From: a virus
Length of the DNA: 33,090 nt
IMG/VR virus record: IMGVR_UViG_3300049442_000202
Span: 1 to 33,090 of that record
Strand: one strand, 5' to 3'
The notes below the pieces were generated by a model, which was given only the letters and a program-made list of their open reading frames with translations, was not told where the DNA came from and did no database searches. Positions 2 through 33,090 of the stretch are shown here, piece after piece (within the stretch, counting starts at the first letter, position 1; each line of letters begins with the position of its first letter). The translations under genes were made by a program, and so were the position numbers.

Positions 2-361
2 CGAACGGGTACGTTCAATCGCACTGCCTCCGACACGCTCACGGTCGCCACGAGCGATACGGCGATCAAGGGCCGATCGGTCACTGTCAGCGACACGCTC
101 ACCACAGCTGACTCGGTTGCACGAACGGGCTCGTTCAACCGCACAGCGTCCGATGCGGTCACCACATCCGACTCGGCCACTGAGTCCACCAGCCGTTCGC
201 GGACTGCATCAGACGCTGTCGTTACAAGTAGTGCGGTCGCGCGGACGGGCAGCTTCCAACGCACAGAAACGGACGCTGTCAGCACAGCCGACGCCGTTAC
301 TCGCACGGGGTCGTTCCATCGAACGGCTGCGGATAGTGTTTCCACTGCCGACGCGATTGTC
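2..361 (+). repeat. Six tandem 60-base (20-residue) units
   Basis: Units begin at 2, 62, 122, 182, 242 and 302 with an exact 60-base period and no insertion or deletion. The best anchor is the (S/T/A)-D-(A/T/S)-(V/L) core, whose first codon lies at 29, 89, 149, 209, 269 and 329. Four units start RTG(S/T)F. Nucleotides have diverged at many positions while the spacing is kept, which suggests selection on the protein repeat. Confidence 0.85.
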
Positions 362-835
362 GCCGTGGTGGCGAACTACTCATTTACCGCACAGGCCATT
401 GTCAAGCGCACAGTAACCGCTACACTGTCCGCTGACGCCGTCCTGTTGCAGGCGCCGACCGCCAGCTTCACAGCTGACGCCGTACAACTGAAGACCGCTC
501 TCACTTCATTCACCGCCGACGCGGTGTTTGGAACAACCCGAACGGCCGGGGTGACGATTGATGCGGTCCTTCTTTCCCCTCAGACGGGTTCGTTTACCGC
601 CGATGCGCTCATCCTCGGCGGGTCGGGCAGCTTCACAGCTGACGCGTTCATCAACCTCAATATTTCGAGAAGCTTCGTTGCCGCGGCCTTCATTCTCGCC
701 GCGCCCACCCAGTTCGAGCCGATCGATGGACTCAACACGGCGGACATGATCGCGGGTCCGTTGGTGGCGGATCTGATCTCGGGTCCCCTCACCGCCGACG
801 TGATCGTTGGTCCGCTGGCGGCCGACCGGCCATGA
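2..835 (+). CDS. Tandem-repeat virion protein, 5' partial (probable tail fibre or surface protein)
   Basis: The frame is open from base 2 to the TGA at 833-835, so the start lies outside the window. Nearly all 277 visible residues are repeats, in three successive blocks: six Ser/Thr/Asp-rich 20-residue units of the RTGSFNRTASDAV kind, eight 14-residue units of the SFTADAVLL kind, and a C-terminal 9-residue array (DLISGPLTA). No catalytic motif, signal peptide or membrane segment is seen. The 14-residue unit recurs in three downstream tail-gene products, which suggests this is also a virion component. Alternating hydrophobic and polar residues would suit a beta-solenoid or fibrous fold; that is inference. 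The BppU-like gene begins 35 bases beyond the stop. The frame is certain; the role is not known. Confidence 0.85.
   Translation, partial: RTGTFNRTASDTLTVATSDTAIKGRSVTVSDTLTTADSVARTGSFNRTASDAVTTSDSATESTSRSRTASDAVVTSSAVARTGSFQRTETDAVSTADAVTRTGSFHRTAADSVSTADAIVAVVANYSFTAQAIVKRTVTATLSADAVLLQAPTASFTADAVQLKTALTSFTADAVFGTTRTAGVTIDAVLLSPQTGSFTADALILGGSGSFTADAFINLNISRSFVAAAFILAAPTQFEPIDGLNTADMIAGPLVADLISGPLTADVIVGPLAADRP
383..715 (+). repeat. Eight tandem 14-residue FTADAV-type units
   Basis: The first codon of the F-T-A-D-A-V core (Phe, or Leu/Val in its place) is at 383, 425, 467, 509, 551, 593, 632 and 674. Six of the seven spacings are exactly 42 bases and one is 39. The same unit recurs with 42-base spacing in the genes at 16734 and 24051, and with irregular spacing in the gene at 23632. 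Confidence 0.85.
743..826 (+). repeat. 9-residue C-terminal array (D-x-I-x-G-P-L-x-A)
   Basis: Asp codons lie at 743, 770, 797 and 824, an exact 27-base period. The three full units read DMIAGPLVA, DLISGPLTA and DVIVGPLAA. It immediately precedes the end of the protein. Confidence 0.85.
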
Positions 836-2287: not shown

Positions 2288-3532
2288 GTGGCGAAGGTTC
2301 TTTGGCTCGGCGACGCCGGTTGTCATACCGGTTTCGCTCGGGTCACTCATTCGATTGGCGAGCGTCTCGTCCGTGATTACGGTCACGAGATCCACGTTCT
2401 CGCCTACAACTTTCGCGGTGACGCATGGCCGTCGCTGCTCTATCCGGACCAGCAGTCCTCGCTGAGGCTGTATCGGCCCAATGCGATCAACGCGACCGAC
2501 GTGTGGGGAAAGAGCCGCCACATCGAGATGCTCGCGAAGATCGAACCGGACGTTGTGGTCATGCTCCACGACGCCCAGTTGCTGTTGAACTTGTTGTTCG
2601 AGAACCAGTTCGACAAGGACAACATCTTCATCAAGTACCGGCCGATCATCACCTACATCCCGATCGACAGCTACAACCGGCCTCCGGGCTGGAGCACGCT
2701 GCTGACGAAGACCACCAACGCCGTGGCCATGAGCAAGTTCGGTCAGGAGTCGATGCCTGGCTCACAGCTTGTCTACCACGGCGTGGACACCGATCGCTTC
2801 TATCGAGTCAGCAAGGACCGGCCGATCACCACCAGCTCGGGCATCGTCTGCACGTCCAAGACGGACTGCAAACGGGCGTTCGGCTGGGACCCTGACGACT
2901 TCTGGATCCTGCGCGTGGACAAGAACTCGGGGCGCAAGGATTTTGGCGCAACGATCCGCGCGGTCTGGCCCGTGATGAAGCGGCACAAGAACGTGCACAT
3001 GCATCTGCACACGACGTCAGGCCGGAGCCAAGAGGACGCACTGCTAATCACGGACATGCTCACTCGTGAGCCTGACGTACACGATCGGTTCAGTCTCCCC
3101 GGGCTGCACAACAGCTTCGAGGGCTGGCCCGAGGAGGATCTGGTCGCGCTGTACAACGCAGCCGACCTGTTCGTTTCCACCTCGCGCGGCGAGGGCTATG
3201 GGTTGACGCTGGCCGAGGCCGCAGCGTGCGGTCTCCCCATCGTGGCCCAGAACGTGTCGGCCATCCCCGAGGTTGTGGGACCCGGCGGGATCTTGGTCGA
3301 GCCGCAACGCTTGATCACCACCCCGAACGGCTCGGATCTCTGGCTCGCCGACGTCGATGCCTTCACCGACGCCATCGAGAGGATCTACGGCTCCAGGGGC
3401 GCTCAGCGCGACCTGGGCGAGGCAGCTCGGGCCCACGTTGCTCAGTTCAGCTGGGACGACGCGACCACGTCGTTCAACACCTACATCAACTCTCTCGCGA
3501 CCTGGGAAGAACCCGCGGTCGCAGCCGTATAG
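2288..3532 (+). CDS. GT-B glycosyltransferase (GT1/GT4 group)
   Basis: 414 residues from GTG 2288, preceded by GGAGGGATCGA. The N-terminus GDAGCHTGFARVTHSIGERL resembles the Gly-rich first loop of GT-B enzymes. The C-terminal half has the nucleotide-sugar site: RVDKNSGRKDF near residue 215 supplies the basic pair, and SRGEGYGLTLAEAAACGLP carries the E-x7-E motif (about Glu302 and Glu310), followed by IVAQNVSAIPEVVG. The length is normal for the family. Such enzymes transfer a sugar from a nucleotide donor; the acceptor cannot be read from sequence. It lies in a cluster of virion-surface genes that includes a Ser/Thr-rich repeat protein, so virion glycosylation is a reasonable inference; modification of host surface sugars is the alternative. 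Confidence 0.88.
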   Translation: MAKVLWLGDAGCHTGFARVTHSIGERLVRDYGHEIHVLAYNFRGDAWPSLLYPDQQSSLRLYRPNAINATDVWGKSRHIEMLAKIEPDVVVMLHDAQLLLNLLFENQFDKDNIFIKYRPIITYIPIDSYNRPPGWSTLLTKTTNAVAMSKFGQESMPGSQLVYHGVDTDRFYRVSKDRPITTSSGIVCTSKTDCKRAFGWDPDDFWILRVDKNSGRKDFGATIRAVWPVMKRHKNVHMHLHTTSGRSQEDALLITDMLTREPDVHDRFSLPGLHNSFEGWPEEDLVALYNAADLFVSTSRGEGYGLTLAEAAACGLPIVAQNVSAIPEVVGPGGILVEPQRLITTPNGSDLWLADVDAFTDAIERIYGSRGAQRDLGEAARAHVAQFSWDDATTSFNTYINSLATWEEPAVAAV

Positions 3533-4893: not shown

Positions 4894-6219
4894 ATGACCG
4901 AGCCGATGGATATGACCAGCGTCCAAGAGACGCTGGAGGAGATCCGGAAGTCGCTCGCGGCCCTCAACGCCACCCCGTCATCCGCGCCGGTCGCTCCGGT
5001 GACCCGCGGCATCGACGACACGGCGACCCCGGCCCCGGGCAGCAACCGGCAGTTCCTGTCGCGTGGCGACATTGGCGCGCTGCGCCAGAACGTCCGCTAC
5101 AAGGCCAACGGCGAGCTTCGCACGATCCCCGAGATCCACGCGATGCTGGCCTCGCAGTCCGAAGAGCGCAATACCGGTGTGCCGGTCGACCAGTGGCTCA
5201 ACGCGGGCGGCTATGCCACCCAGCAGGCCGCGATGTCGAACCAGCTCATCCAGAAGGCTGTCGACAGCTCGGGCGTGTCCGCGCTGATCCGGCAGGACCT
5301 GGAGCCGATGCTCTACGAGCTGTACGTTCGTGAGTTCCCGGCCTTCGAGCGCTTCGCGCGCGAACCAGCCAATGGTCTCGTGCACGCGTTCAACCAGATC
5401 ACCAGCTTCGGTTCGGCCAAGTTCATGGCCGAGCTGGGTACCGTGACTGACGACCAGTCGACCTACGTCCGCCAGACGACCAACGTGGCCGTGCTTGCGA
5501 CCCGGCGTGGCGTCTCGCTGAAGTCCCAGTTCGCGGTCCTGGCCGGTGGCGCCGGGTACAACCCGGAGTCTCTGGAGCTTCAGGGCGGCCTCCGTGCCAT
5601 GGCCCACGAGCTGCAGAAGGCCATCTTCCAGGGCAACTCGGCCAACTCTGGCGGCACCGCGTCGAGCGACTTCGGTCTCTACGACGCCAACGCTTTCCAG
5701 GGTCTCCGTTGGACGCTCACCACGAGCCGCGTGCAGAACGCCGACCCGACCGCCGGTACCCCCGACGACATGCGGACGGCAATCGATCGCGCCTCCGAGC
5801 AGATCATGGAGCAGGGCGGCCGCGCCAACATCATCTGGTGCCACCCGCACGAGAAGGTCAGCTTCGACCTGCAGCAGGACAAGAACGTCCGGTACATGAA
5901 CTCGTTCGTCGACGTCGCTCCTGGCGTCGTGACGAACGCGGTCAACACCGTGTTCGGCCCCCTGCCGCTCGCGATCGTGCCGGGCGACTCGATCGGCACC
6001 TACAACGCGGCGAACTACTCCAGCAACCTCGTTCGGGACATGTATGTCCTCGACGAGTCGGCCATCTCGCTTCCGTACCTCGGTTCGGAAGGCCCGACGG
6101 TCCTGGAGATCCCCGTGGGTATCTCGGGTCAGCTGACCCGGCTGTACATCGTGTTCGGGATGTGGGGCCTCGCCGTCAAGGCGATCCCGTTCTCGAACAA
6201 GGTGCGCATCAAGCAGTAA
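4894..6219 (+). CDS. Major capsid protein (HK97 fold)
   Basis: 441 residues from ATG 4894, with GGAGAG just upstream inside the end of the protease gene. The N-terminal 60 residues have a short amphipathic helix (VQETLEEIRKSLAALN) and a Pro/Ala linker, consistent with a delta-type assembly domain; the cleavage site cannot be fixed. The body has the expected order: a Phe-rich spine helix (ELYVREFPAFERFAREP), a Gly/Ala-rich middle, and a C-terminal region with VYVLDE-like and VEIPVG-like strands ending FSNKVRIKQ. Location straight after the protease, strongly GC-biased codon choice typical of a highly expressed gene, and a terminator just downstream all support the call. Confidence 0.88.
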   Translation: MTEPMDMTSVQETLEEIRKSLAALNATPSSAPVAPVTRGIDDTATPAPGSNRQFLSRGDIGALRQNVRYKANGELRTIPEIHAMLASQSEERNTGVPVDQWLNAGGYATQQAAMSNQLIQKAVDSSGVSALIRQDLEPMLYELYVREFPAFERFAREPANGLVHAFNQITSFGSAKFMAELGTVTDDQSTYVRQTTNVAVLATRRGVSLKSQFAVLAGGAGYNPESLELQGGLRAMAHELQKAIFQGNSANSGGTASSDFGLYDANAFQGLRWTLTTSRVQNADPTAGTPDDMRTAIDRASEQIMEQGGRANIIWCHPHEKVSFDLQQDKNVRYMNSFVDVAPGVVTNAVNTVFGPLPLAIVPGDSIGTYNAANYSSNLVRDMYVLDESAISLPYLGSEGPTVLEIPVGISGQLTRLYIVFGMWGLAVKAIPFSNKVRIKQ

Positions 6220-16733: not shown

Positions 16734-19700
16734 ATGACGACGGCCTTCCAGGGCGACGCTTTTCAGGCCAACGCCTTCCAGATCGATGCCAACACCGTCA
16801 GCGGCTCGTTCACCGCCGACGCCATCTTGCGAGTCCCCGGATCGGGCTCATTCACCGTCAACGCGGTCATCGCTGGCCCCCCCACCACCCTCTGGTTCCG
16901 GCAGGGCCTCACGACGGCTCCTGACCGCTACTGCTCGAATACCAACCGGGCCAACCTCGTCGGGACCAACGTCTCATGGTTCCCACGCAGTCTGCGGACG
17001 ACTCGCATCGGTACCGGCGCCGCGACGTCGGCGAGTTCCAGCACGGTGAATGGGCCGACGGCTGGGGTCTTGGTCGTCGATGGATCATCGGGCAACTCCC
17101 TCGAATGGGTCAGCCCGCCCTTGGCGGCCGACGTGACCATTTCGGGGACGATCACCTTCAACCTCTGGGCGCGCGAGTCCAACGCCAGTGCCAACGTCGC
17201 CATCAACGCCCAGATCGAGCGCCTTGATAGCGTAGGCGCCGTTCAGGACTTGGTCGTCAAGACGGCCCAGACCGCCGAACTTGTCACGACCAGCCCGCCG
17301 ACCACGCCTGACAACTTCACCGCCACTCCGACTTCGACCAACTTCAACAAGGGCGACCGGATCAGGATATTGGTGTTCGGGGGTGACTCCACCTCGAACA
17401 TGGCGAGCGGTTTCACGTTCAACTTCTTCTTCGACCGTTCGGTGGTTGGGACTAACGGAGAGTCGTTCGTCACTTTCACTGAGACGATCACTTTCCAGAC
17501 GACGGACCCCGCCACGACCACCGTCTACTTGACCGACACGGCATCGACCGTGTCCACGGCATCGGTCGATCGAGAGGCATGGACGGCGCGTGGGGCTGGC
17601 GTCCAGACGGATGTCACCAACACGGCAGCGGGGTGGGTAAGTCCCATTCAGGTTACTGATACTGCCGGTGGCACGGTGGTTGACTGGTTCACGAAGCCGT
17701 TGACCGCGTTCACTCTGTCCAGCGCCGTGCTGCTCAATATCCGGGGCACCATCAACAGCCCCAGCAACGCCTCGTGGCGGTTTGAGATCGCTCGGGTCGC
17801 GAACGACGGCTCCTCGCCTACCGTCTGGGGAGCCAACAGCATCATCAATAGTCCGATCGGGTCGGAGGCCGCCCAGCAGTTCTATATCTCGGGCGACGAT
17901 CTCGCGATCACCGCCGGGCAGCGGCTTCGGCTGCGGGCCTACATCGCGCCCAACCAAGACGTGATGGTCACCGGCAAAATCCTGACGTTGTTCTACGCGG
18001 GCACCTCGGGTGGCGCCTCCGGCGACACCTACTTGATCTTCGGTGAGACGCTGACGGAGAACGCCAATACTGTCAGTGGCTCATTCACCGCCGACGCGAT
18101 CCTGCGGGTCCCCGGCGCGGCCTCGTTCACCGCCGACGCGGTTATCGCCGCCGTCACCCCGCCGGTCGTTGGCACCACCGTCGTCATCCGTCTCGGCGGG
18201 GTCGATGTCACCAGCCACGTCATCTTCGCGGACGCGGAGTTCACGCAACAGGCCAATGGACAGCCCGGCTCGGCTCGGCTGCGCCTCCGTGACCTAGGCC
18301 ACACGCTCAGCCCAACTGCAGGCCAGACGCTCACGGTGGATGTGAATGGGCTCCGGGTCTGGGGTGGTTGGGCGCTCCGCGTCTCGCCGGGCTATTTCTT
18401 CGCCGTCGACGACACATCGAACCCGGCGCAGACCGAGCGCGTTTGGATCCTGGAGGGCGTCGACTACAACATCCTGTTCAGCAAGCGGTTCCTGATCAAC
18501 CGGCTGAACCCGACCCAGATGCTGCCGATCTACCCGAAGGACACACCTGATTTCCAGGTCGTGCTCGATGTGGTCCAGCGGTTTCTCGAACTGAACAACG
18601 ACGGGATCAGCACCAGCGGCGTGACCCACGTAGGCACGCCGAACCTCGATGGCGACTTCAGCGCCGGGAACCCGGGTGACTCCTGGGGTACCTCGATGAA
18701 CCTCATCGCAGGGCCGACGGCGGCGGTGTTCTACATCGACCCGAACAAGGTGTTGCAGTTCGTCGACGTTGAGACTGCCACGGCGCCGTTCGCACTCAGC
18801 GACCACCCGGACCACACGACGAGCTTCGGCTATCGCGACATGGAGATCACCAACGACGGGACGAAGCTCGTCAACGACATGATGGTCTGGGGCGCGGGGG
18901 CCCACTCGACGCCGGACACCAGGTTCGTGCGGGTGCAGGACGCAACCTCGATTGCCACGCATGGTCGCTGGCAGCAGGGTGAGTTCACCTCGGCGCTGTT
19001 TACCACCTCGGGCGTCACGCAGCGAGCTGAGAGCTTCGTTTACGGCACCCCGCAGAGCAAGCGTGGTGGCAAGGACGACGCGATCCAGATCAGCTGTGTC
19101 ACCTATCACCCTGGCCTGACCGCGGGCCAGATCATCAACTTCTCGTCCACGGTCTTCGGCTATTCGGACACGCTGCCGATCCGACGTCTGGGGATCCGTT
19201 TCCCGAACCCGACCAGCGTGGAGTTCCGAGTGTTCCTGTCCTACGACATCGACGCTCCGTGGAGCGACTACGAGTTCTGGTTCCCCAGGATCAACTTCCA
19301 GCCCCCGACGGGCGGCGGCATCGGCGGCATCGTCTGGCCGCCGATTGTGCTACCGCCTGTGACGGATTGCTCCGACGACGTCTGCGGGATCACCGACACG
19401 TTCACCCGCACGGTCGCCGAGACCATCCATACGGGGTCGTCTGGCGCTACGGTGGCGGACATCGGGACGAGCGACGCTGGTCGGCACTGGGGTAATCCGA
19501 CGGGGACATTGTTCGGTCTTGGCGCTCTCCTCGGTAACGGGAACATCGGCGTCAGCGTCAATGGCAGTTCGCTGCTGGTGCGGGGATGGGCTACCGCGCT
19601 CGGTGTGCCGCCGGGGTCGATGTCGATGGTGATCCCCGACACAGGATCGTTCACGCCCCTTGCCGTAGATCACACGGCGACCAAGTCCGTCACGTTTTCG

Positions 19701-21002
19701 ATGGACTCATTGCCCGGCCACGCTGGCAACAACACGGTCGCCGACATCTACTTCGACGTGGGCGGCGGGGTCCTCAACAACGATCCGTTCATCTGGATCA
19801 ACGCGATGCCTACCTCGTATCCGATCGGGACGTTCTTCCAGTCCCAACTCTCCTTCGGACCGACGTCGGCCCCTATCGCACAGACGCTGATCCCGAACTC
19901 GTGGTGGCAGGCCGGGGTGACCTACACCTTCACCGTACGCGACAACGGGACGGACACGATCGCCACGATCTCCGATGGAACGACGACGTATACGTCAACG
20001 CACTCCGGGTTCACCAGCGACAACTTGCCTACGGCTGGCTTGGTGGTGAACTACGAGACCGGCCTCGGCGGAGTGTCTGCCGCCGAACAGGTCATCATGA
20101 CGTTCGACAACTTCAATGTTCCCGAGATCACCCGCTGCTCGCAGAACGAGTTCGACAACTTCAACCGCATCGTCGCGAGCGGCTGGGGGACGGCGACGCC
20201 ATCGGGAGCTGTCTGGACGCTGTCGTCGCTGAACGTCAGTACCTCCGTGGGCGGGGCCTACGGCGTGGTGACGATGACCGGGGCAATCGGCGGCGACTTC
20301 GCCCGGTTCGAGACCACGGTTCCGACCGGGATGACCGGCTCATTCGAGGAGGTTGTCGGCTTCTTCGTGAGCCGGGTGTCTTCGGCAGCCGACTCCGATC
20401 AGAGTCTCATCCTGAACCTCGGCTACGACCAGGAAGTGATCCTCCGGATCGGCAACTCGACCGGCGGCTTCGTCCCGGGCGGCATCGTCGTCGGCTCGAC
20501 GTACGCGGCCAAGACCGACTGGACGACGGACCCGTACTTCCTGCGCATGTCGTGGAACGCCGACACGGGCGAGATCAAGGCTCGCGTGTGGTTGCAATCC
20601 GATCCCGAACCGACCTCGTGGCTCGTTACGGCCATTACGTCACCGGGGTCGCTGGCGAGCGTCAAGGTTGAGGCAGACCCGCTCGCCGTTTCGGACTCGA
20701 TCTTCTTGGACTCCATCGACTTCGACTACGACGGCAAGCCCTGCTATCCAGCTGGTCCGCCTCCTGAGCCTGGTCCTGCTGTGGGCGGCGTCATTTGTCA
20801 GCAGTTTGTTGGCGGGGTTCATCAATACACCGTCAGCCAGGCGTACACACCGGGCACGACGAAGGTCTACGTCGACGGGACCTTCCAGGGGCTGAACGTC
20901 GAATACAGCGAGACCGACCCGACGAACGGGATCATCTACTTCGGAGTGGCCCCGGCGCCGCCTGCGACGGTGACGGTCTGCTTCACGGCCACGGTGGGGT
21001 GA
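16734..21002 (+). CDS. Large hub-like minor tail protein with FTADAV repeats and lectin-like modules
   Basis: 1422 residues from ATG 16734. Modules in order: an N-terminal A-F-Q-x-(D/N)-A-F-Q run; two 14-residue FTADAV-type units near residues 26-50; a beta-rich region with two similar domains to about 440; two more units near 451-475; a hub-like module at about 481-860 (VVIRLGGVDVTSHVIFADAE, VWILEGVDYNILFSKRFLIN); a Pro/Gly hinge (GGGIGGIVWPPIVLPP); two jelly-roll-like domains opening DTFTRTV and FDNFNRIV; and a C-terminal module (TKVYVDG, YSETDPTNGIIYF). The hub and C-terminal modules are shared with the next gene. It probably forms part of the tail tip and binds the host surface. No hydrolase motif was seen. 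Confidence 0.85.
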   Translation: MTTAFQGDAFQANAFQIDANTVSGSFTADAILRVPGSGSFTVNAVIAGPPTTLWFRQGLTTAPDRYCSNTNRANLVGTNVSWFPRSLRTTRIGTGAATSASSSTVNGPTAGVLVVDGSSGNSLEWVSPPLAADVTISGTITFNLWARESNASANVAINAQIERLDSVGAVQDLVVKTAQTAELVTTSPPTTPDNFTATPTSTNFNKGDRIRILVFGGDSTSNMASGFTFNFFFDRSVVGTNGESFVTFTETITFQTTDPATTTVYLTDTASTVSTASVDREAWTARGAGVQTDVTNTAAGWVSPIQVTDTAGGTVVDWFTKPLTAFTLSSAVLLNIRGTINSPSNASWRFEIARVANDGSSPTVWGANSIINSPIGSEAAQQFYISGDDLAITAGQRLRLRAYIAPNQDVMVTGKILTLFYAGTSGGASGDTYLIFGETLTENANTVSGSFTADAILRVPGAASFTADAVIAAVTPPVVGTTVVIRLGGVDVTSHVIFADAEFTQQANGQPGSARLRLRDLGHTLSPTAGQTLTVDVNGLRVWGGWALRVSPGYFFAVDDTSNPAQTERVWILEGVDYNILFSKRFLINRLNPTQMLPIYPKDTPDFQVVLDVVQRFLELNNDGISTSGVTHVGTPNLDGDFSAGNPGDSWGTSMNLIAGPTAAVFYIDPNKVLQFVDVETATAPFALSDHPDHTTSFGYRDMEITNDGTKLVNDMMVWGAGAHSTPDTRFVRVQDATSIATHGRWQQGEFTSALFTTSGVTQRAESFVYGTPQSKRGGKDDAIQISCVTYHPGLTAGQIINFSSTVFGYSDTLPIRRLGIRFPNPTSVEFRVFLSYDIDAPWSDYEFWFPRINFQPPTGGGIGGIVWPPIVLPPVTDCSDDVCGITDTFTRTVAETIHTGSSGATVADIGTSDAGRHWGNPTGTLFGLGALLGNGNIGVSVNGSSLLVRGWATALGVPPGSMSMVIPDTGSFTPLAVDHTATKSVTFSMDSLPGHAGNNTVADIYFDVGGGVLNNDPFIWINAMPTSYPIGTFFQSQLSFGPTSAPIAQTLIPNSWWQAGVTYTFTVRDNGTDTIATISDGTTTYTSTHSGFTSDNLPTAGLVVNYETGLGGVSAAEQVIMTFDNFNVPEITRCSQNEFDNFNRIVASGWGTATPSGAVWTLSSLNVSTSVGGAYGVVTMTGAIGGDFARFETTVPTGMTGSFEEVVGFFVSRVSSAADSDQSLILNLGYDQEVILRIGNSTGGFVPGGIVVGSTYAAKTDWTTDPYFLRMSWNADTGEIKARVWLQSDPEPTSWLVTAITSPGSLASVKVEADPLAVSDSIFLDSIDFDYDGKPCYPAGPPPEPGPAVGGVICQQFVGGVHQYTVSQAYTPGTTKVYVDGTFQGLNVEYSETDPTNGIIYFGVAPAPPATVTVCFTATVG
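16809..16892 (+). repeat. Two 14-residue FTADAV-type units (N-terminal pair)
   Basis: Core Phe codons at 16809 and 16851, exactly 42 bases apart (GSFTADAILRVPGSGSFTVN). The DNA is closely related to the pair at 18084-18167 in the same gene. Confidence 0.85.
18084..18167 (+). repeat. Two 14-residue FTADAV-type units (internal pair)
   Basis: Core Phe codons at 18084 and 18126, again exactly 42 bases apart (GSFTADAILRVPGAASFTAD). The pair sits at the junction between the N-terminal beta domains and the hub-like module, and is almost a copy of the pair at 16809. Confidence 0.85.
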
Positions 21003-23631: not shown

Positions 23632-24054
23632 ATGCCCTCCAGCACCTTCGCCATAGATGCTGTTCTTGCCAGCAGGGGGTTCACCGCCGACGCGGTGATC
23701 CTGGGCAACCGGCTGCGTCACGACAGGACGCTGGATCACAACGGCGTCCAGCCCTCCAGTTCGGTGACGCTATCGACGGCCATCGGACCGTATCCGGCCG
23801 GGACCACGGTTGAGGCGGTGCTGATTGACTTCGCTGCTCGACTGACCATTCTGGACTCGGCAAATCGATCGTTCGGTGTGTTCACGGCCAGCGCCCTGAT
23901 TGCTGCCCACTTCTCGGCAGACGCCATCATCAAGGGTGTCCCGACCGGGTCGTTCACCGTCGACGCGATCCTGGGTCGTGCGTTCACTGCCAACGCGGTG
24001 ATCAAAGACGGCGGCATCGCCAACAGCCTCACCGCGGATGCGTTCATCGTATGA
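23632..24054 (+). CDS. FTADAV-repeat protein of the tail-fibre cluster
   Basis: 140 residues from ATG 23632 (GGGGCG upstream, a weak site). Repeat units flank a short central segment (TIGPY-like turn, then VEAVLIDFAARLTILDSANR, which looks helical). Core codons at 23647, 23680, 23881, 23911, 23953, 23983 and 24028 give spacings of 11, 10, 14, 10 and 15 residues within the two blocks, so the period is irregular here. No other domain is seen. The central segment V-x-A-V-L-I-D-F-A-A-R-L resembles helices at the start of short fibre proteins. It overlaps the next gene as ATGA, so the two products are probably made together. Confidence 0.8.
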   Translation: MPSSTFAIDAVLASRGFTADAVILGNRLRHDRTLDHNGVQPSSSVTLSTAIGPYPAGTTVEAVLIDFAARLTILDSANRSFGVFTASALIAAHFSADAIIKGVPTGSFTVDAILGRAFTANAVIKDGGIANSLTADAFIV

Positions 24055-24998
24055 GCCGACCCACGCACGATCGGACCGATCTGCATTACGGAACTGAGGA
24101 CGATCTCGTTCAGCTGCTGTCCGCTGCCGTCGGATCGATCTCAGCAGGCTCTAGCTTGCACTCGGCGCTGGAGTACATCCACAACGAGATCTTGTTCTTC
24201 GAGAACCCGCCGCCGCCAGGTCCCGCCAACCAGATCTTCTTCGACGACTTCAACCGAGTCGTGACCCGGGGCCTCGGTGGCCAGTGGTCACTGAACCCAT
24301 ACGATTTCCACGGAAGTTTCACTGAGGACATCAAGACGTCGGTCAATGGCTTCAACGTCGTTGTGCCCGCTGCGAACTTCTGGGAGGCGTGGACCGGGTT
24401 CCCTCTTCCGGCCACCGGTGAGCTGTACTTCGATTTCTACGTGCCGTCGTCATGGACGAATCCCAGCGGTCGACCAACGTATGGGATCGCGCTGGATAGG
24501 TCGGATTACGTCGGCTTCTATGCCATTGCGCGACCGGATGGCGTGAGTTTCTGGGTGTACCAGTTCGAGAGCGACACCCCATACGTTCTGACGCCCACCC
24601 CATCAACCTGGTATCGAGTCCATGGTCGGTGGGATGGCTCGTTCGTCAACCTGAATGTCTGGAGACGGATCGATCCAGAGCCAGCTGGCTGGCAATACAC
24701 CGATACACAGCGGTTTCTGCCATACAACCCAGCCACTGACGATGCCCCGTTCCTGGATCTCTACTACTTCCCCGCCGTCGATATCGGTGGTGTGGACAAC
24801 ATCCGGATCATCACGACCGAGTCTCACTGGGTCGGTTTCGGGGGCTTCCAGGTCAACTCCGTCATCAAGAAGACCGCCTCCGGATCGCTGAGCGCGAACT
24901 CGATCCTCAGAGGCAACATCTCCGGCTCGAAGACCGCTGACGCGGTGATCAAGCGGAACACCACAGGTTCGTTTACCGCCGACGCGGTCATCGCATAG
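24051..24998 (+). CDS. Minor tail protein: jelly-roll-like domain plus FTADAV repeats
   Basis: 315 residues from ATG 24051, overlapping the previous stop as ATGA. Residues 1-50 are helical (LVQLLSAAVGSISAGSSLHS). Residues about 60-260 form a beta-sandwich-like domain opening IFFDDFNRVVTRGLGGQWSL, the same D-x-F-N-R opening seen twice in the protein at 16734, with a W-x-R-V-H-G-R-W strand typical of LamG-like folds. The last 50 residues are four 14-residue repeat units. The combination suggests a sugar-binding tip attached through the repeat. Biochemical function is not shown. Confidence 0.78.
   Translation: MSRPTHDRTDLHYGTEDDLVQLLSAAVGSISAGSSLHSALEYIHNEILFFENPPPPGPANQIFFDDFNRVVTRGLGGQWSLNPYDFHGSFTEDIKTSVNGFNVVVPAANFWEAWTGFPLPATGELYFDFYVPSSWTNPSGRPTYGIALDRSDYVGFYAIARPDGVSFWVYQFESDTPYVLTPTPSTWYRVHGRWDGSFVNLNVWRRIDPEPAGWQYTDTQRFLPYNPATDDAPFLDLYYFPAVDIGGVDNIRIITTESHWVGFGGFQVNSVIKKTASGSLSANSILRGNISGSKTADAVIKRNTTGSFTADAVIA
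24846..24995 (+). repeat. Four 14-residue FTADAV-type units at a C-terminus
   Basis: Core codons at 24846, 24888, 24930 and 24972, all exactly 42 bases apart (GFQVNSVI, GSLSANSIL, GSKTADAVI, GSFTADAVI). The protein ends right after the last unit. Confidence 0.85.
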
Positions 24999-32695: not shown

Positions 32696-33090
32696 TCACG
32701 CCAACGAGCAGTTGACGAAGGTCACGCCCGGAGGGTTCGCGCCCATGGCGCTGTAGAACCCGCCCGAGTTGGTTGACACGATGTCCTTGAACACGATGTT
32801 GCTCGCGCCGACGGACTCGAAGCGGATGGCGAGACCGTTGGCGTTGGTGATCGTGGCGCCGTCAAACAGCCAGTCATGGACGGGCGGCACCCACAGGATG
32901 ATCGCCTGCTGAACGGTCGGCTCTCCTCTTCCCCGGTTGCCGACGTACTTGAGGCGTCGGATGGTGACGTTGTAGGCGTTGACGAGGCCGTTGTCGGCGT
33001 GATCCATGTGGACGGCCGAGGCGAGGCCCATGGCCGCTGACGCATCCACGTCGAGGTCCTCGATCAGGATGTCGTGGCAGCCGCCGCGAG
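32696..33090 (-). CDS. Beta-helix protein, 5' partial, on the recombination-gene strand
   Basis: Open from the window edge to TGA at 32696-32698, 130 residues visible; the start lies outside the window. Repeating rungs with Asn/Val/Ile ladders are seen: HDILIEDLDVDAS, VNAYNVTIRRLKYVGNRG, LFDGATITNANGLAIRFESV and SNIVFKDIVSTNSGGFYSAM. This is the pattern of right-handed parallel beta-helices such as pectate-lyase-like folds. It ends VTFVNCSLA. Unlike the other beta-helix genes it is not on the late strand, and it lies only 13 bases upstream of the ERF start. It might be a spike, a depolymerase or an unrelated beta-helix enzyme. Confidence 0.78.
   Translation of the reverse strand, partial: RGGCHDILIEDLDVDASAAMGLASAVHMDHADNGLVNAYNVTIRRLKYVGNRGRGEPTVQQAIILWVPPVHDWLFDGATITNANGLAIRFESVGASNIVFKDIVSTNSGGFYSAMGANPPGVTFVNCSLA

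Follow-up and report, generated by a model that had tools for sequence, protein, structure and literature searches.

What kind of protein changes the length of its repeat unit twice along one chain? The question is raised by the first open reading frame of a 33,090-base stretch of viral DNA (hereafter the window), which is the entire IMG/VR virus record IMGVR_UViG_3300049442_000202. This frame, at positions 2-835 on the plus strand, is open at the 5' edge of the record, and an earlier note had read its visible part as six 60-base units, eight of 42 bases (one of 39) and then units of 27 bases, giving tandem arrays with exact periods of 20, 14 and 9 residues. Our analysis agrees with that reading. 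The six 20-residue units occupy positions 5-364 (+), and autocorrelation together with the sequence places the eight 14-residue units (14, 14, 14, 14, 14, 14, 13 and 14 residues) at 374-706 (+). The 9-residue array, about 3.5 units of the L-x-x-A-D-x-I-x-G type, lies at 728-832 (+) and forms the C-terminal end of the protein; TRF reports 738-826 at period 27. The autocorrelation of the window protein peaks at 20/40, 14/28/42 and 9/18, above shuffled sequences throughout. The mean BLOSUM62 score is 1.98-2.51 for the 20-mer array against a shuffle maximum of about 0.36±0.10, and 0.79-1.07 for the 14-mer array against about -0.01±0.11; the 9-mer array scores 2.09 against 0.28±0.41, a weaker signal because the segment is short.

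Since the window is the whole record, the missing 5' end of the gene lies outside it. It was recovered in a scan of viral contigs on L003 (IMGVR_UViG_3300046740_000391, 68,639 bases), a longer contig of the window's own virus, which overlaps the window over 6,832 bases with 0 mismatches within the stretch compared. The complete gene, L003:2464-6834, encodes 1,456 residues and is 100% identical to the window protein, which represents the last 277 residues, or the final 19%, of the full-length product. What the recovered part adds upstream is a set of lectin-like domains and a longer 20-mer array. Lectin-type domains, with short RTASDTLT-like pieces between them, lie within residues 1-960. The 20-mers (one unit of 18 residues) follow at 961-1300, beginning about 210 residues upstream of the six units seen in the window, and the 14-mers run from about 1304 to 1414, with the 9-mers closing the chain. 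Laminin_G_3 (PF13385) matches L003:2464-6831 in two stretches (Pfam, E=5.9e-38), so the protein carries the domain by which LamG/ConA-type fibres are recognized. Several LamG-type PHROG families also match the complete protein, two of them named virion structural protein. One family of that name, PHROG 701 (6,136 positions), spans residues 717-1313 with E=5.1e-7.

The arrays themselves proved to be unfamiliar to the libraries. Neither Pfam nor NCBIfam nor the PHROGs gave a convincing profile match over them; the stray matches inside the arrays belong to unrelated families, mostly without a stretch that passes on its own, and PHROG 12240 (of unknown function) covers part of the 20-mers of another array contig, L005, with E=4.9e-6. 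The PDB holds no sequence match to either repeat profile, a tblastn search of 50,697 phage genomes with the window protein came back empty, and the repeat strings do not occur in the literature searched. The earlier statement that no named family has this layout thus still holds after searches of Pfam, NCBIfam, PHROG and PDB. The major capsid protein (window 4894-6216) was likewise without a tblastn match in these 50,697 genomes, and no isolate of the lineage appears to have been sequenced; nor was it matched in 396 Streptomyces-phylum and 385 Mesorhizobium-class genomes, a result of little weight, as the set includes no genome known to match. While modular phage fibres are already known as a function class, the repeat families, the fixed order of the arrays and the register between them appear to be new.

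To define the units, we searched IMG/VR with a pattern of three A-D-A cores spaced 42 bases apart, which matched 67 stretches; a strict filter kept 47 ORFs with 1,134 units. Most matches to a short DNA pattern for FTADAVI were isolated and due to chance, and spaced patterns were used for the searches instead; in bacterial genomes, none of the loci returned by the FTADAVI pattern passed the array filter. The consensus was drawn from 531 units chosen by their two neighbours alone, so that the unit itself was unselected. It reads G-S-F-T-A-D-A-V-I-(R/K)-(R/K)-T-Q-(S/T), with D or N at position 6 in 91% and A or S at position 7 in 97% of these units. Positions 10-14 are mostly R/K, R/K/A, T, Q and S/T, and Gly is found only at position 1 (41%). 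The 20-mer units, pooled from L003 and two further contigs, L295 and L297 (n=62), have R6 in 98%, D/E10 in 99%, D16 in 93% and R20 in 83%, the usual relation being D/E-x5-D, which divides the unit into steps of 6 and 14. The 20-mer pattern matched at least 120 stretches in IMG/VR, many of them real and of other flavours. These include VSETATGTDAV-type and ADTVGITD(TL)-type arrays with the D/E-x5-D pattern (e.g., L362, L365, L378, L397, L405 and L415); such differently composed 20-residue arrays are widespread in environmental phage contigs and are not named by the family libraries searched.

The 14-residue repeat is not confined to the array gene. A 1,422-residue baseplate/tail-type protein (16734-21002, +) has short 14-mer stretches, by core spacing, near its N-terminus and around residue 460; the sequence of a 140-residue protein (23632-24054, +) contains several 14-mer-like units; and the C-terminus of a 315-residue protein (24051-24998) carries 14-mer units at 24843-24995 (+) that match the window array with E=4e-6 and 39% identity. 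With three further proteins of the same phage carrying it, the repeat is a module common to several virion-type genes of one genome. A candidate homology with Aeromonas phage BUCT552 (L243) was rejected, as the longer 14-mer query had matched the strand opposite the annotated gene. The BUCT552 tail protein QVW27843.1 does end in a 14-residue array (LAPYNLRSTVQAEL), a different and unrelated one, so a period of 14 may have more than one origin among the tail proteins of phages.

Are the exact periods simply the trace of recent duplication? The earlier note had argued that the periods persist while the nucleotides diverge and that the protein spacing seems to be selected, and both points are upheld. 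In the window, the 20-mer units are 50% and the 14-mer units 44% identical in DNA, and codon position 3 differs at 64-73% of sites, a divergence too large for the periods to stem mainly from recent duplication of DNA. The units of L295 are 67% identical to each other in protein and only 34% at codon position 3; compared with the units of other proteins, the figures are 36-38% and 27-30%. Across 20 arrays, the use of the same codon exceeds a synonymous within-array shuffle by only 0.02. With synonymous sites near saturation and amino acids kept, it is selection on the protein that holds the periods and the likeness of the units, and the arrays appear mostly not to be recent DNA duplications. 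Duplication is nonetheless still happening, as a handful of closely similar units show (up to 95% in a further contig, L441). Scrambling of codons to avoid DNA repeats was considered as well and is ruled out by the slight excess, rather than deficit, of shared codons. It is worth recording that the 20-mer units of L295, L003, L297 and L441 are far more alike within than between proteins at almost random synonymous sites; this likeness persists without DNA homogenization.

The composition of the units allows a reading without any fold. The arrays could be flexible Ser/Thr-rich stalks, possibly glycosylated, that space the lectin domains, in which case the exact period would come from sites that recur, such as those for glycosylation or for phase-sensitive binding. 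Ser and Thr make up 39-41% of the 20-mers of L003 and L295, and large hydrophobics are few in the 20-mer arrays (13-24%). In the 20-mers of L297, however, Ser and Thr amount to only 24%. In the 14-mers, large hydrophobics account for 29-32% of residues, and the placing of F, A, A, V and I is strict. Moreover, L295 and L297 each have 27 consecutive 20-residue units without an indel, which is unusual for a disordered linker; the motif spacings in these gapless arrays are exactly 20 in 26 of 29 and 25 of 28 cases.

The order of the arrays and the way they are joined speak to the same issue. The order 20-mers, 14-mers, 9-mers is found in L003 and in the proteins of three other uncultured phages, L295 (1,087 residues), L297 (860 residues) and L441 (1,334 residues), and no example of 14-mers before 20-mers was seen among the array proteins examined. 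In L441, the 9-mer signal lies within shuffles (0.89 vs. 1.00), the units, one of 11 residues, being visible by eye; we also read a LamG-like insert inside its 20-mer array, which has no Pfam match. Within a 20-mer array, D16 and the next D10 are 14 residues apart, and at the 20-to-14 junction the distance from the last D16 to the first Asp of the 14-mers is 14 residues in L003 and 15 in L295, L297 and L441, close in all four. At the 14-to-9 junction, the first hydrophobic residue of the 9-mers tends to fall at +11 from the last 14-mer Asp, the position that the Phe of a next 14-mer would occupy. Among the 19 offsets compared, this one scores best in 12 of 26 tails, against about 1.4 expected by chance; in another contig, L453, it is also seen by eye, the script having picked the wrong core, and the window protein's own junction departs from it (best offset 13). 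The core that the earlier note had seen in all three arrays is thus shared, and it tends to carry through the junctions in register. As the junctions are mostly in register, the 20-mer can be written as 14+6 residues and the 9-mer as 14-5, around a shared (F/I)-x-A-D strand. The three unit lengths would then be one strand with connecting segments of different length, a relation that we infer from spacing. In-register junctions suggest structural continuity, which argues against the flexible stalk.

Structure prediction gives a less decisive picture. The 20-mers and 14-mers were aligned separately, one alignment (A2) covering the 20-mer array and the other (A3) the 14-mer and 9-mer part. The AlphaFold2 monomer for A3 has a pLDDT of 64.8 and a pTM of 0.42 and shows two short strands per unit, the first 50 residues reaching a pLDDT of 71-80; that for A2 (pLDDT 54.2, pTM 0.39) has one 4-residue and one 9-residue strand per unit. 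The monomer models proposed in the earlier note as a check thus yielded periodic strands, but at a confidence (pLDDT 65 and 54) too low to settle the fold. Foldseek found nothing significant against the PDB (best E 0.81, TM 0.21) or the BFVD (best E 0.021, TM 0.14). Such low-confidence monomers are what may be expected of a fibre that folds only as an oligomer, and equally of a flexible stalk, which they favour to that extent. The solenoid of the earlier note would, as a monomer, be a beta-solenoid with coils of 20, then 14, then 9 residues. It draws some support from the presence of two strands per unit in both models and from the weak best PDB matches, which are mostly beta-helix proteins. 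Against it, those matches have E values of at least 0.8 and TM scores of about 0.2, no confident single-chain solenoid was predicted despite alignments of in-register homologues, and coils of 9 or 14 residues would be short for a single-chain solenoid core; we regard the solenoid as very unlikely. Of the proposal that the arrays are successive segments of one solenoid or fibre with changing pitch, the shared core and the in-register junctions therefore stand, while the solenoid and the change of pitch stay hypothetical, the monomers being of low confidence and Foldseek giving nothing significant.

A further line of evidence comes from the neighbouring genes. The next gene (870-1181, +) encodes a 103-residue protein resembling BppU_N, an Ig-like ring/anchor domain (PF10651, E=3.6e-9), with a score of 36.9 bits against a Pfam gathering threshold of 23.1; the L295 copy scores 24.4. 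It is followed by a right-handed beta-helix protein (1190-2266, +; PF13229, E=3.6e-10) and a glycosyltransferase (2288-3532, +; phrog_2170, E=1.4e-30). A truncated ORF at the right edge of the window (32696-33088, -) resembles, by eye, a beta-helix protein. A 13-codon ORF (MRLNVLEQIEVDL) at 832-873 overlaps the array gene at its stop codon and the BppU_N-like gene at its GTG start, which is suggestive of translational coupling. A fusion of the BppU_N domain to the array protein was sought in L005 and was not supported; in the window the domain is a separate gene. To see how general the arrangement is, IMG/VR was scanned with an alignment (A4) of the BppU_N-like family, built from neighbours of arrays found earlier plus Halorubrum tailed virus 25, the repeats being left unused. 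The 28 loci returned include the window's own virus, one near-identical pair (L437 and L438) and the array contigs that had contributed to A4, the new contigs being the cleaner test. A 14-mer array was found at this place in all 28 contigs. In 25 it immediately precedes the BppU_N-like gene, in L439 and L450 one or two small genes intervene, and in L454 (the same contig as L121) only its C-terminus is visible, at the contig edge. Of 25 testable tails, 19 end in a 9-residue array (lag 9 above the 95% level of shuffles). Two small genes upstream of the array (smallB and up305) are common to L003, L295/L453, L297/L460 and L458. Downstream, the glycosyltransferase is present at all 28 loci; on contigs that extend far enough, genes for the protease, the major capsid protein and the adaptor come after it.

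The nearby glycosyltransferase hints at glycosylation of the fibre or of some other virion protein. Together with the glycosylated capsid proteins reported for F1 mycobacteriophages (PMC11256854), its presence at every locus also speaks for a glycosylated flexible stalk, which we nevertheless consider unlikely given the gapless, in-register arrays. The position of the locus raises a different point, that of where on the virion the protein would sit. In TP901-1, the N-terminal domain of BppU forms a ring around the distal tail protein and carries the receptor-binding proteins (PMC10747895), and in the ring of mycobacteriophage Claus the corresponding domain is Ig-like (preprint PMC13252515). 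Here, the array gene adjoins the head genes and is distant from those of the tail. Attachment at the neck is therefore conceivable, the protein then being a collar or whisker fibre like the lactococcal neck passage structure rather than a tail-tip fibre. Lactococcal neck passage proteins are elongated and end in carbohydrate-binding modules, and their collar has been proposed as a ring comparable to that of the BppU N-terminus (PMC10747895). The locus lies directly upstream of the protease and capsid genes, and the LamG and BppU_N genes of Halorubrum tailed virus 25 precede its terminase and portal genes. Gene order is, however, weak evidence of position, and the BppU proteins of the cited papers sit at the distal tail. 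A neck position is possible, though on the doubtful side, and it is compatible with the explanation that we prefer.

That explanation draws on the role of the BppU ring, the neck passage ring and the gene order of Halorubrum tailed virus 25, from which the protein is read as a virion fibre that would bind glycans and work alongside the BppU_N-like protein. It seems probable that the window ORF is the C-terminal shaft of a large modular virion fibre of an uncultured tailed-phage lineage, with the BppU_N-like protein as its partner. The Concanavalin-A/LamG-type domains would probably bind surface glycans, and would be joined to and spaced by beta-rich arrays of 20-mers, 14-mers and 9-mers. These arrays may be variants of one element in which an (F/I/L)-x-A-D strand recurs in register as the unit shortens from 20 to 14 to 9; a thin beta fibre of intertwined chains (a trimer) is their most likely form, ahead of a monomeric solenoid. 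Such a fibre would probably act together with the adjacent stand-alone BppU_N-like protein, whose fold is that of the fibre-holding tail ring in other siphophages. The Ser/Thr-rich shaft, or some other virion protein, may be a substrate of the neighbouring glycosyltransferase. A bolder idea, which we put forward tentatively and hold less likely to be right, is that of a new class of viral beta fibre, in which a single register-keeping strand is reused in the 20-, 14- and 9-residue repeats and the chain changes its rise per repeat twice along a continuous shaft, in fixed order, across a lineage.

If the arrays do fold as one fibre, nature would have supplied a series of beta-shaft segments whose step lengths are strictly defined. 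One could learn from it how fibre folds tolerate a change of period, and use it in building protein fibres. The work also names a likely attachment locus (repeat fibre, BppU_N-like protein and glycosyltransferase) of an uncultured phage lineage. The two repeat profiles, for the 14-mer and the 20-mer, are absent from current family libraries and would annotate many hypothetical giant phage genes.

Among the known systems, the triple beta-spiral of the adenovirus fibre forms a thin shaft in which beta repeats of roughly 15 residues lead to binding domains. The array protein would resemble it as a thin beta-repeat shaft together with binding-type domains; its period of 14 is confirmed, and the low-confidence model (pLDDT 64.8) has two strands per unit. 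It differs in that its units are exactly 14 (or 20, or 9) residues, the conserved Gly/Pro turn inside the unit is absent, the binding-type domains are found within the arrays or on their N-terminal side, and a trimer is only proposed. The triple-stranded beta-helix of T4 gp5, with its VxGxxxxx octapeptide repeat (PMC4576200), offers a similarly short and strict repeat, in which one ladder position is N/D and others are charged; there, however, the period is 8 with VxG, while the arrays have 20, 14 and 9 with (F/I)-x-A-D and show no sequence match to it. A single-chain beta-solenoid would be recognized by confident stacked coils and a structural match, and what was obtained is a pLDDT of 54-65 and a Foldseek E of 0.81. 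The BACON repeats of crAssphage (PMC6949934) are also tandem repeats in a phage protein, but are whole domains of a named carbohydrate-binding family rather than units of 9-20 residues. The LamG-repeat fibres of polinton-like viruses (Laminin_G_3, PF13385; PMC12220804) are likewise large modular attachment-type proteins with lectin domains; collagen, S74 chaperone and other modules are found there, and uncharacterized 20/14/9 arrays serve as spacers here. With the BppU/baseplate ring of siphophages (PF10651; PMC10747895, PMC13252515), the locus shares a neighbour gene that matches BppU_N above the curated cut-off, although here it is a stand-alone 103-residue protein beside capsid genes, unfused to a fibre or carbohydrate module. 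The likeness in gene order is found in an archaeal virus, Halorubrum tailed virus 25 (L430). While its LamG protein gp7 is without a 14- or 20-residue array of this kind, the gp7 gene is directly followed by a BppU_N gene, in the same order as here, and the product of the latter, gp8, is 42% identical to the window's BppU_N-like protein over 79%.
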